Below are positions 44,916 through 57,084 of a DNA stretch of 64,000 bases, piece by piece. The translations under genes were made by a program, and so were the position numbers. Source of the stretch: Deferribacterales bacterium Deferri_01. GTDB lineage: Bacteria; Chrysiogenota; Deferribacteres; Deferribacterales; Geovibrionaceae. How positions within the stretch are numbered: the first letter of the stretch is position 1; the number at the start of each line of letters is the position of its first letter. The notes beneath the pieces were generated by a model. It was given only the letters and a program-made list of their open reading frames with translations. It made no database searches and was not told the origin of the DNA. The stretch spans positions 124,001 to 188,000 of the forward strand of contig LUZY01000013.1 in the NCBI GenBank assembly GCA_001603805.1, given 5' to 3'.

Positions 44916-45605
44916 TTAATTCTTAGCCAGCTTTGCGTCTATGAGCCTTTTTCTTTCTATGAGAACAGAAGTATCCCTGCCGAGTTTTCCGTATGCCTCA
45001 ATCATAATTGCTAAATCTCTGGATATTCCAAGTGTCCAGCCGTATGTGCTGTCGATTACACGGGCTTTTTCTGCAAGCTCACAGGATTTCTCCGGTTCAG
45101 AATCCGTTAAGTTTGCGGCAATAAGCCTGTATAGTCTGACTTTTGAGTCAGGGTTTGTGTTTCCACCATCAGCATAGGAGAGCAGGTCTGAGTATTTACC
45201 AGTTTTCATGAATTCTGCTATCAATGAAAAGGGTTTTTCAAGATCGTCGGTATCTTTGATGCTGTCACCAGCAAGAAAAGATATGATAAGTTTTTCATCA
45301 ACGCATTCTGCAAGCTCAGAATATGCAGACGCTTTTGCAAGCTCATCAGAGGATGCCTCCTGTTCGGCAAGAACATATTTTGTTATGTAGAGGCGGGATA
45401 TATTGCAGACGGAATCCATTCTCTGAAAAGCGTCAAGGGCTTTATAAAATGTGATGTCAGCCATTTTGCTGTCACCTTTGTAATAGTAAGATGAGTAGTT
45501 TTTATGCAGTGATGATGCGTATATGTACTCGGCAGAGCTTTTCGGCTTATCTCCACAGGCTGCCGCAGTAAGGCAGAACAGTACCAGCAGGGTTATTCTT
45601 TTCAT
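44916..45605 (-). CDS. Lipoprotein of the MCE operon
   Basis: This 229-residue protein has a lipoprotein signal peptide (MKRITLLVLFCLTAAAC, Cys 17). The mature part is helical and TPR-like in appearance (repeated aromatic/alanine spacing, YSELAECVDEKL, CELAEKARVID) and lacks recognised motifs. It overlaps the mlaD-like gene by four bases and closes the operon. Possible roles are a periplasmic partner of the MCE protein, as auxiliary lipoproteins are in other MCE systems. Confidence 0.7.
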   Translation of the reverse strand: MKRITLLVLFCLTAAACGDKPKSSAEYIYASSLHKNYSSYYYKGDSKMADITFYKALDAFQRMDSVCNISRLYITKYVLAEQEASSDELAKASAYSELAECVDEKLIISFLAGDSIKDTDDLEKPFSLIAEFMKTGKYSDLLSYADGGNTNPDSKVRLYRLIAANLTDSEPEKSCELAEKARVIDSTYGWTLGISRDLAIMIEAYGKLGRDTSVLIERKRLIDAKLAKN

Positions 45606-46585
45606 GGCAGCTTCACCTTTTCACCCGTAACCACAGAACCGTCATTGAACGGCCATCTTTGTTCGAGGTTATGCAGAATCCGGTCGGATGTCTTGAGTAT
45701 GGAGTCCGCCTGACTTTTAATTTCGGTGATGTTGTCTGTAGCTTCGGCTATATCACCCGAAATTTCATTTGCGTTGTCTATTGTGGGCTGCGCACTTTCC
45801 ACAGCGTTCTGTATAGACTGAATACCTTCTTTAAATGTTTGAAGGGCGCTGTTAAGTTTATCAATGGACTCGTCGGTCCGCTCGACCTTGTTATTAACAT
45901 TTCCTGCTATATCATTAAGCTGAGTCTGGAGTATTTCAATACGCCCGACTATATTCTGAACCTCATTTTTGATATAATCACTGCGGACAAGATAGCCCAC
46001 TGAGCCGGTTTTGTTATGAAGGTCATCCCCCACATCTCCGAGACCGCTGAAAAATCTGTCTATATTTTTGCTCTGGTCTTCAATCGTCTGGGTAATGTTT
46101 GCGACATTGTTAACTATTTCCTTAACATCATCTATAACCGGCTGCGCCTGCTCTATAAGAGCCGCCAGACCGCCTTCACGGATAAGGTTGAAGGAGGTGC
46201 CGTCCTGTATTTCAAGTGAATCAGGCGAGCCGCCGCTGAAGACTATGAAGCTTGAACCGATAATATTTTGTGATGTAAGCTTTGCTGTTGAGTCCTGTTT
46301 GATCCATTTGGTGTACTGTTTCGGGATTTTAGTGTGAAGAACAACATTTCCGTCTTCCATAAGCTCAACTTCGTAAACTCTGGATATGGTGAACCCTGCG
46401 TACTTCACAGGCATGCTTTTTGTGATTCCATCGCCTGAGTCAGTGAGGATTGAAACGTTAATTTTAGGCATAAAGAGCTTTTTCTTAATGGCAAAGGTCA
46501 CCAGAATAGCAGCCATCAGTGCGATGGATATTATTACAAAAAGTCCTACCTTGAGTTCGAGGTTTGCAAATTTATTTCCAGCCAT
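45602..46585 (-). CDS. mlaD: MCE/MlaD-family lipid transport protein
   Basis: This 327-residue protein has one N-terminal TM helix (~12-33), a MCE domain (~40-125: ILTDSGDGITKSMPVKYAGF, IIGSSFIVFSGG) and a long coiled-coil C-terminal region (~140-310) rich in Asn, Asp and Ile. MCE proteins form hexameric rings or tubes that pass phospholipids between the membranes. The long helical tail exceeds E. coli MlaD (183 residues) and is more like the MlaD of other phyla. The start lies 40 bases inside the upstream ATPase-like gene. Confidence 0.88.
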   Translation of the reverse strand: MAGNKFANLELKVGLFVIISIALMAAILVTFAIKKKLFMPKINVSILTDSGDGITKSMPVKYAGFTISRVYEVELMEDGNVVLHTKIPKQYTKWIKQDSTAKLTSQNIIGSSFIVFSGGSPDSLEIQDGTSFNLIREGGLAALIEQAQPVIDDVKEIVNNVANITQTIEDQSKNIDRFFSGLGDVGDDLHNKTGSVGYLVRSDYIKNEVQNIVGRIEILQTQLNDIAGNVNNKVERTDESIDKLNSALQTFKEGIQSIQNAVESAQPTIDNANEISGDIAEATDNITEIKSQADSILKTSDRILHNLEQRWPFNDGSVVTGEKVKLP

Positions 46586-47073
46586 AAGTCAAAGTCCAGC
46601 TCCGTATAGTTTTCAAGATCCTGAAACAGATATCTGTGGTTTATATGATCGATAATAACCGAATTATCCCTTGTTTCACAACGTAAAAAATCCTTAAACT
46701 TTTCTTCATATTCAGCAGCGTACATCCTTCTGGGGCTTACTATGATTATCCATTTCGGCTGAAGGTACGTTACCTGAAGATACTTTACCATAAGTTTTTC
46801 AAAATCCGTGAGAAAGTCCGGTCTGGTATCAATGATATGAGGCATTTCCAAACGTTTCAGGTCGTTTTCTATCATTTTTCTGCCTTCTTTAAGGCTCAGA
46901 TTAAAGTGGTAGCTGGCGGGGAGTATAATATTTTCAAAAACAGAGAGGTTGCCGATTATCGGGAGCCTGCTCGTTACAATTCCTATATGCTCAGTTTTAG
47001 TTAATTCAAGTATCTGGTCAAGCCAGCGCTCTTTCTGGGCTTCGCTGGTGTAGTATATAAATGTGTTTGTCAT
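46546..47073 (-). CDS. Degenerate ABC ATPase-like protein of the MCE operon
   Basis: This 175-residue protein occupies the MlaF position of the operon. The region after the P-loop of an ABC ATPase can be traced: a Q-loop-like stretch (NLSVFENIILP, residues 42-52), then FLTDFEKLMVKYLQ (88-100) where LSGGQ-type signatures normally lie, and WIIIVSP (108-114) in place of Walker B. There is no Walker A, the signature is not recognisable as LSGGQ, and the catalytic Glu after Walker B is absent. It is about 80 residues shorter than MlaF. It looks like a nucleotide-binding domain that has lost its ATP site. The frame is intact and overlaps its neighbours, so it is not an obvious pseudogene. Confidence 0.7.
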   Translation of the reverse strand: MTNTFIYYTSEAQKERWLDQILELTKTEHIGIVTSRLPIIGNLSVFENIILPASYHFNLSLKEGRKMIENDLKRLEMPHIIDTRPDFLTDFEKLMVKYLQVTYLQPKWIIIVSPRRMYAAEYEEKFKDFLRCETRDNSVIIDHINHRYLFQDLENYTELDFDLWLEINLQTSNSR

Positions 47074-55391: not shown

Positions 55392-56390
55392 TTAAATTAT
55401 CGTATCATCAATATTATCAAGTCTTCCGCCCGTGCGGAGAATATTTCTCATGGCAAGGAGCTTTTCATCCAGCTTTCTTAATGCCTCAAGACTTTTTCTT
55501 TCTTCTCCTGTGGTTTCGATTATCTCGTTGATACCGCCGTTTTTGATTACTATTCTTTTTGAACCCATAAGCGCCAGAATAGGGTCGTGTGTTGCCATAA
55601 GAACGAGTTTTTCTTCTTTAACAAGGAGTTCAAGAGCTTTTTTTCTGTCTATTCCGGCATTCTCAATTTCATCCACAAGCACAACGGGTGATTTGCTTAA
55701 AAAAGCAGTATCAGCTATCATCAGCGCACGGGATTGACCGCCGCTGAGAGATGTCACAGGTGTGTCAGGTTTAAATTTTTCTCCAGCAAGCATGTTTGCC
55801 TGCTCGATTATTAAAGCGGTCTTTTCTGCGGGATTTTCCACAAGCCTGCTTTCAGCGTGCATCATGACAAATTCTTCGGCAGTTAAGTCCATTACGAAGT
55901 TCATGTTCTGCGAAAGCTGCGCCACAAGCTTATGTTCCAGAGAGTAACGCATTGACAAATCCGGCTTTTCGCCGTTTATCAGAATACGCCTTCCGGTGGG
56001 GGTGTCTCCGTCTGCCAGCCATTCAATATCAGCCAGAAGGCGGCTTTTTCCCGAACCGGTAGGTCCTACTATGCAGATTATATCACCTTTGCTTATGGTA
56101 AGCTCAACATTTTCAGGATTTCCGCTTTTATCGTGTCCGCCGATCACTGTAAGGCTGTTTACATCCATCCCTTTGTCATTCATCATCGCTTCAAAATCTG
56201 CGGCGAAGGCTTCCAACGACTGGAAGAAATTCTCCGGATCAATTCCCAGATCCTCTAGCTTGTCTTCCGGGATGTTTCTCACGTATTCGGCAGGGGTAAT
56301 TTCATGGTTGTCTATCTTTAGACCGAAGCTTTCAAAGAAATCGGTCATATATGTCTGTTCGGAAAATTTTCTGTCAGCGGCTTTTTTCAT
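55392..56390 (-). CDS. Soluble ABC ATPase of a permease-less operon
   Basis: This 332-residue protein has a helical N-terminal domain (~15-60, ITPAEYVRNIPEDKLEDLGI) that resembles the small DUF1858/ScdA_N-like domain, followed by a complete ABC nucleotide-binding domain: Walker A GPTGSGKS (109-116), signature LSGGQ (215-219), Walker B VVLVDE (236-241) and H268 switch. It is clearly active-looking. No permease gene is present in the operon. The ATG at 56390 follows GGAGGAG; the longer frame to 56423 is rejected. It follows the GTPase gene by four bases. Confidence 0.85.
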   Translation of the reverse strand: MKKAADRKFSEQTYMTDFFESFGLKIDNHEITPAEYVRNIPEDKLEDLGIDPENFFQSLEAFAADFEAMMNDKGMDVNSLTVIGGHDKSGNPENVELTISKGDIICIVGPTGSGKSRLLADIEWLADGDTPTGRRILINGEKPDLSMRYSLEHKLVAQLSQNMNFVMDLTAEEFVMMHAESRLVENPAEKTALIIEQANMLAGEKFKPDTPVTSLSGGQSRALMIADTAFLSKSPVVLVDEIENAGIDRKKALELLVKEEKLVLMATHDPILALMGSKRIVIKNGGINEIIETTGEERKSLEALRKLDEKLLAMRNILRTGGRLDNIDDTII

Positions 56391-56394
56391 TTTT

Positions 56395-57084
56395 CTACTC
56401 CTCCATATCCATTTTGCGGACATTGCCCATCTGATAAGTATCGCCTATGCGCCTTTCTCCCAAGCAATATGAGCAGAGAGCAGAGGGCATTGAAAAACGA
56501 AGCATGCGCCCTTTAAGAGTCTCAATCTCGTCTCCGCTGATAAAAAGACGTGAAAGCTCATACGCACCCTGTCCGGTAATTCCGTTGACATTCATTATTG
56601 TCGCAGCAGGATTTGCTATTTTCACTCTTGAAGCGAAGACCTCTCTTTCCGCCTGTGATACAATATCTCCCTTGGTGATGATCACTATATCCGCTGATTT
56701 CAGCATAGGACCAATCTTCTTAGGTGTGTTGACGCCACTGAGGTTATCTATAACGCACACGGCGGTTATATCCTTTATATGAGGTGAACATCTGTTGCAG
56801 AGACCGGCACTCTCGCTTATGAGTATATCAAGCCCTTTATCTGTTCCCCAGCGCACGCACTCTTCAACATTGCTTACGAAGAAATGGTCGGGACACAAAG
56901 CGCCTGATAAGCCTTTCTTAACGGGTACGCCTTTTTTTTCGTACAGCTTGTCATCATCAGTGGTAAGGCAGTCAAACTTGACAACCCCTGTTTTAAGCCC
57001 TCTGGAGGCGAGGGCGTCTATGGTTTTCAGAATTACCGATGTTTTGCCCGATGAAGGGGGACCGGAAACTGTTATAAATTTCAT
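56395..57084 (-). CDS. HypB/CooC-like P-loop GTPase with CxxC motifs
   Basis: This 229-residue nucleotide-binding protein of the SIMIBI class (metal-insertion GTPase type) has the P-loop GPPSSGKT (8-15), a guanine-specificity-like TKGD (137-140) in place of NKxD, and C64, C96-x2-C99 (CNRC) and C204-x2-C207 (CSYC) as possible metal ligands. The last pair is in a tail with conserved aromatic residues (GDTYQMGNVRKM). It resembles HypB and UreG, but no hydrogenase or urease genes are nearby. GAGG precedes the ATG at 57084; upstream TTG and ATG are alternatives. The gene lies between the binding-protein-like gene and the ABC gene. Confidence 0.8.
   Translation of the reverse strand: MKFITVSGPPSSGKTSVILKTIDALASRGLKTGVVKFDCLTTDDDKLYEKKGVPVKKGLSGALCPDHFFVSNVEECVRWGTDKGLDILISESAGLCNRCSPHIKDITAVCVIDNLSGVNTPKKIGPMLKSADIVIITKGDIVSQAEREVFASRVKIANPAATIMNVNGITGQGAYELSRLFISGDEIETLKGRMLRFSMPSALCSYCLGERRIGDTYQMGNVRKMDMEE

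Follow-up and report, generated by a model that had tools for sequence, protein, structure and literature searches.

Analysis of this operon alongside its relatives indicates that the subunit in the ATPase position of an MlaE-type MCE transporter is a pseudo nucleotide-binding domain (psNBD), which on the evidence of its sequences is maintained by selection, class-wide, along with a private subfamily of MlaE permeases. We consider it likely that psNBD is structural, holding the coupling helices of MlaE within an MCE lipid bridge in which this subunit carries out no ATP hydrolysis, and the psNBD branch of the MlaE-type transporter family appears to work without ATP hydrolysis of its own. The wider proposition, that in a monophyletic, multi-phylum MlaE subfamily the ATPase has been exchanged for a structural pseudo-NBD and lipids pass from one membrane to the other without ATP hydrolysis, seems to us evenly poised; if true, the architecture of an ABC transporter would have become a lipid bridge that works passively or draws on some other drive. 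The prevailing view is that MlaE-type transporters cannot move lipids unless MlaF hydrolyses ATP, and both the direction of MCE transport and its energetics are under debate. Organisms that keep a live NBD beside a conserved MlaE complex whose NBD is dead offer a built-in control that separates the NBD as structure from the NBD as motor. We found no published MlaE system with a pseudo-NBD in the open-licence literature.

The operon and its pseudo nucleotide-binding domain

The window (the whole 64,000-nucleotide stretch of DNA analysed) comes from a 2.85-Mb genome and carries, at 47858-44916 on the (-) strand, a four-gene operon in the order MlaE, psNBD, MlaD, lipoprotein (Table 1). An earlier sequence-only reading had described these genes as overlapping head to tail, and so they do: the psNBD frame runs from 47073 to 46546 (-), with overlaps of 4 nt between MlaE and psNBD (MlaE stop at 47070), 40 nt between psNBD and MlaD (MlaD start at 46585) and 4 nt between MlaD and the lipoprotein. 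MlaE and MlaD both exceed curated Pfam cut-offs, which places the co-encoded permease and MCE-domain protein in the MCE/MlaE-type transporter family, and the alignment shows that the permease keeps the region from TM2 through the coupling helix to TM3 (ALMKMNREIDTLQSLSIDP...PRI). The operon has no MlaB gene. The all-helical model of the lipoprotein has a pLDDT of 93 with weak matches to TPR proteins, and its lipobox Cys is invariant in 28 relatives. Matches to DUF4441 and Cps2T in the Pfam/NCBIfam search were weak and were set aside.

Table 1. Features of the operon, in window positions.
Feature	Position	Strand	Basis
MlaE-type MCE permease, 262 aa	47070..47858	(-)	PF02405 1.1e-44; PDB MlaE 7ch8 3e-17; alignment and tree
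psNBD (pseudo nucleotide-binding domain), 175 aa; Walker A, signature, Walker B and Q-loop Gln all absent	46546..47073	(-)	
Residues 38-56 of psNBD, PIIGNLSVFENIILPASYH, its best-conserved segment, just after the Q-loop position	46906..46962	(-)	column entropy
MlaD-type MCE protein, 327 aa, with a single TM, a single MCE domain and, at the C-terminus, a long helical tail	45602..46585	(-)	PF02470 5.3e-9; PDB MCE proteins
Lipoprotein, 229 aa, all-helical, TPR-like fold; lipobox Cys17	44916..45605	(-)	

No curated ABC family in Pfam or NCBIfam reaches its cut-off in psNBD, and PF00005 is unmatched. Searched against the PDB as a single sequence it matches NBDs at E 0.004, and as a profile of 30 orthologues it matches solved NBDs at E 1.6e-8. 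The HMM alignment to MlaF that the sequence-only reading had proposed as a check gives 96% probability and E 4.5e-9 against a profile of eight intact deferribacterial MlaFs (hhalign), over 96 ungapped columns that start ahead of the Q-loop, reach Walker B and cover only the middle of MlaF. An AlphaFold2 model built from a 30-row alignment is confident (pLDDT 91.4, pTM 0.87), and its best fold matches in the PDB are NBDs (Foldseek E 1.1e-8, TMq 0.74). By sequence profile, profile-profile comparison and predicted fold, psNBD is a genuine relative of ABC domains and the remnant of an NBD; at 175 aa it is not a full-length MlaF, the active ATPase with a C-terminal 'handshake' that binds MlaE and MlaB. 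Elements of the model include a strand at residues 3-8, a helix at 11-24, a strand at 30-33, the helical domain at 45-102 and a strand at 108-112. Read from this order, the first strand and helix would be the former P-loop strand and helix 1, with just two residues left between them, and the antiparallel ABC-beta subdomain would be gone. Single-profile scores of psNBD are higher for MacB/LolD-like NBDs (49 bits) than for the genome's own MlaF (22 bits). We nevertheless favour an ABC ATPase ancestor that was probably of the MlaF (MCE) type rather than the LolD/MacB type, because the profile-profile alignment with MlaF is long and ungapped and because an 'ALISN(L/M)S' motif is common to psNBD and partly degenerate MCE NBDs.

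The motifs of an ABC ATPase (Walker A, LSGGQ, the Walker B Asp-Glu, the Q-loop Gln and the H-loop) do not place psNBD among the active enzymes. The first four are missing from all 30 aligned orthologues, so that the losses first reported for this one frame (Walker A, LSGGQ and the Walker B catalytic residue) recur throughout the set that was proposed for comparison, and a His near the H-loop position occurs in only 11 of 29 rows. At the former LSGGQ the orthologues read L-x-x-[FY]-[EQ], and where the Q-loop Gln stood they have S, K, Y or R, with an entropy of about 2.0-3.1 over positions 34-36. The sequence-only reading had also held that the Q-loop and helical-domain layout was kept; this stands for the helical domain and for the stretch P38-H56 just after the Q-loop, and fails for the Q-loop Gln itself.

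A six-frame search across the operon returned no P-loop-like motif in 31 of 32 operons, the single match being a chance antisense one, and the same search detected the P-loop in all seven intact control loci. The operon encodes no ATP site. The two findings that could have overturned the original claim were looked for and neither was found: a Walker A hidden by a frameshift or an upstream start is ruled out by the six-frame result, and assembly truncation of an intact MlaF by the near-equal length and overlaps in 32 independently assembled operons. An ABC-type ORF about 8 kb upstream, at window positions 55392-56423, was considered as a nearby intact MlaF and rejected; it encodes a stand-alone, LSGGQ-bearing ATPase of 343 aa in a separate cluster with P-loop GTPase-like and solute-binding-like genes.

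Selection and pairing with a divergent permease

Across the phylum, 38 of 51 genomes have both psNBD, scoring over 100 bits, and a divergent MlaE, scoring at least 35 bits and mostly 100-170; the other 13 have neither. Every operon inspected (32/32) has the order MlaE-psNBD-MlaD-lipoprotein. In close pairs the dN/dS of psNBD is 0.03-0.25, far below 1, with several dS values near saturation, and with the class-wide orthologues this bears out the view that the frame is kept by selection. These dN/dS values lie above those of MlaE and MlaD, so psNBD is the faster-changing protein. Conservation is concentrated in residues 38-56, with a mean column entropy of 1.10 versus about 1.6-2.6 elsewhere, and is low at the former P-loop helix and Q-loop. 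Conserved residues outside the MlaD overlap are P38, N48, Y55, L88 and F129. W164 is encoded within the overlap (window 46546-46585), where the TG of its TGG codon also belongs to the ATG of MlaD. This double use accounts for its invariance, so we discounted it as a functional residue; it illustrates how gene overlap can impose conservation.

That psNBD is a decaying pseudogene or an assembly artefact is hardly credible. One species, a Denitrovibrio sp. MAG (G007; L135 / L170), does carry an in-frame TAG that shortens psNBD to 142 aa, the sole case seen, but purifying selection, class-wide conservation, near-constant length and overlaps and a confident fold all stand against this explanation, which the orthologues contradict. 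In genus g6, the divergent MlaE and psNBD are present or absent jointly (G013 and G020 versus G027), which suggests a recent joint loss.

The wider search combined a survey of 385 genomes with a scan of named genomes, including the relatives Seleniivibrio, Denitrovibrio and Calditerrivibrio. Four further loci (L175, L177, L183 and L184) encode MlaE, a short psNBD, MlaD and a lipoprotein; another (L176) has the same gene set with MlaE broken and psNBD and MlaD in one frame, and two (L185 and L186) contain the MlaE-psNBD pair. One of these operons (L177, DZAY01000030.1) lies in a MAG labelled Helicobacter cetorum (isolate name SulCav), a label that looks doubtful. In the phylum of G281, psNBD occurs in 21 of 28 genomes at 93-150 bits, with a divergent-type MlaE directly upstream in 20 of the 21 and the remaining one at a contig edge. 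The proteins there are about 130-147 aa long (about 125-147 aa with the psNBDs of the other MAGs included), lack Walker A throughout and end the former Walker B in [DE]RPF. Within this phylum, genus g113 has MlaE and psNBD coupled, with MlaD and the lipoprotein not adjacent; in G281 of that genus (L260 / L185) the pair adjoins a dihydrolipoamide dehydrogenase-like gene on the opposite strand.

This coupling bears on the idea that psNBD functions outside the transporter, for example as a chaperone for MlaE insertion. Its rapid sequence change and the loss of all motifs would suit such a role; its translational overlap with MlaE, found at the large majority of loci and even where the rest of the operon is non-adjacent, and the perfect phyletic pairing of psNBD with the divergent MlaE argue against it, and we regard it as quite improbable.

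In a tree of 46 MlaE rows, in which the NBD was not used, the root was not inferred and the L154 row has a very long branch, all 25 pseudo-NBD-linked permeases fall on one side of a 100/100 branch, corresponding to one change of state.

A proposed structural role and the source of energy

The NBD of an MCE transporter has two jobs, clamping the coupling helices of the permease and burning ATP, and in intact NBDs the region after the Q-loop lines the coupling-helix groove. Of these jobs, psNBD could retain only the clamping. In ABC transporters the permease places its coupling helix in an NBD cleft (PMC7367683); in MlaE, this helix sits between TM2 and TM3 (PMC7790496). By homology and conservation, we suggest that psNBD is an ABC ATPase descendant turned structural subunit. 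Two copies would bind the MlaE dimer at its coupling helices, using the conserved segment after the former Q-loop, and in this way cap the dimer and keep its cytoplasmic side together. MlaE would lie under the MCE ring of MlaD, whose helical tail would extend towards the TPR-like, putatively outer-membrane lipoprotein, and the three would form a trans-envelope bridge, with lipid as its presumed cargo, that operates without ATP hydrolysis at the psNBD subunit. Flow might be passive, down a gradient, or have another drive, e.g. proton motive force.

The structural pseudo-ATPase proposed from the sequence alone is supported by the class-wide orthologues, the low dN/dS, the confidently predicted NBD-like fold and the unbroken pairing with an MlaE subfamily of its own. 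Two observations weigh against a structural subunit: psNBD evolves faster than MlaE and MlaD, and G007 carries its in-frame TAG. Canonical Mla requires ATP hydrolysis, since the MlaF variants K47A and E170Q fail to complement (PMC7367683), and an ATP-free MlaE complex is therefore without direct precedent.

Against the ATP-free reading stands an intact MlaE-MlaF pair in nearly every genome; all well-sampled genomes have either such a locus or, failing that, a canonical MlaE in addition to the divergent one. The sequence-only reading had offered two options, an ATP-free complex or an ATPase borrowed from elsewhere, and had called for a genome search for a second, intact MlaF; there is one, in an MlaE-MlaF locus of the same genome (G000:C13, about 268.4-269.9 kb) with GPSGTGKS, LSGGM and YDEP motifs. 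The MlaF of this other MCE operon, or another NBD, might power the divergent MlaE, with psNBD as an accessory or competitor on the same coupling helices, an MlaB-like regulator. A canonical second MlaE is present in nearly all psNBD genomes, and mycobacterial MceG shows that one ATPase can serve several MCE transporters (PMC9947336). However, no ATP site would be complete in a mixed psNBD/MlaF dimer, because neither the Walker A half nor the signature half of the composite site is present in psNBD; the conserved face of psNBD is the groove that MlaF would need; and the divergent MlaE was never found beside an intact NBD in the loci inspected. We consider a borrowed motor unlikely and, because of the incomplete site in any mixed dimer, rank it below ATP-free working.

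Comparison with other MCE systems

MlaFEDB of E. coli, Pseudomonas and Acinetobacter likewise has an MlaE permease, an MlaD MCE ring and a co-encoded ABC-type subunit. Its MlaF (about 270 aa), however, is an active ATPase, and mutation of Walker A/B abolishes its function (PMC7367683), whereas psNBD has no ATP site and its operon no MlaB. The three-gene MlaEFD systems of most diderms (Veillonella type) are closer in their minimal MlaE-F-D set, long MlaD and lack of MlaA/B/C in the operon, but their MlaF is intact (PMC10665443). That survey assigned MlaF by synteny and noted its annotation as uncertain (PMC10665443); surveys of this kind will miss or mis-assign subunits of the psNBD type. Brucella MpcEFDA has the same four-gene order, MlaE-ATPase-MlaD-lipoprotein, and a trans-envelope needle model (PMC12436622). 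It differs in its ATPase, described as an MlaF homologue in a well-conserved ABC transporter (PMC12436622), and in its lipoprotein, which is PqiC-like rather than TPR-like.

MCE systems without a dedicated ATPase include PqiABC and LetAB, although their membrane component, PqiA/LetA, is no ABC permease and they hold no NBD relic. We know of no pseudo-NBD in the mycobacterial Mce1/Mce4 operons. For PqiABC and LetAB, passive transport, an unidentified ATPase and PMF are the candidate energy sources (PMC10897342), and PqiABC is a possible precedent for ATP-free MCE systems. Mce1/Mce4 also lack an active ATPase of their own in the operon, the difference being that the shared MceG is encoded elsewhere (PMC9947336).

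Intermediate NBDs are found among MCE loci, which suggests stepwise decay. Those of L187/L188, L224 and L179/L181 share the MlaE-NBD-MlaD arrangement and an altered signature (LSMGE, LSTGH and LSLGE, respectively), and those of L187/L188 and L179/L181 also have the 'ALISN(L/M)S' motif of psNBD. Unlike psNBD, they are full-length (about 241-259 aa) and keep Walker A, their changes being confined to the signature, the Walker B Glu or the H-loop. L224 (G155) has lost the H-loop, and L179/L181, from Nitrospirota MAGs, combine LSLGE with IDDP. The full-length NBDs of L187/L188 and L263 (G214, G067), also in MlaE-NBD-MlaD loci, keep Walker A as GKSGSGKS, but their signature reads LSMGE, their Walker B is WDNP, with Asn for Glu, and SDD replaces the H-loop His, a combination that possibly allows ATP binding with poor hydrolysis.
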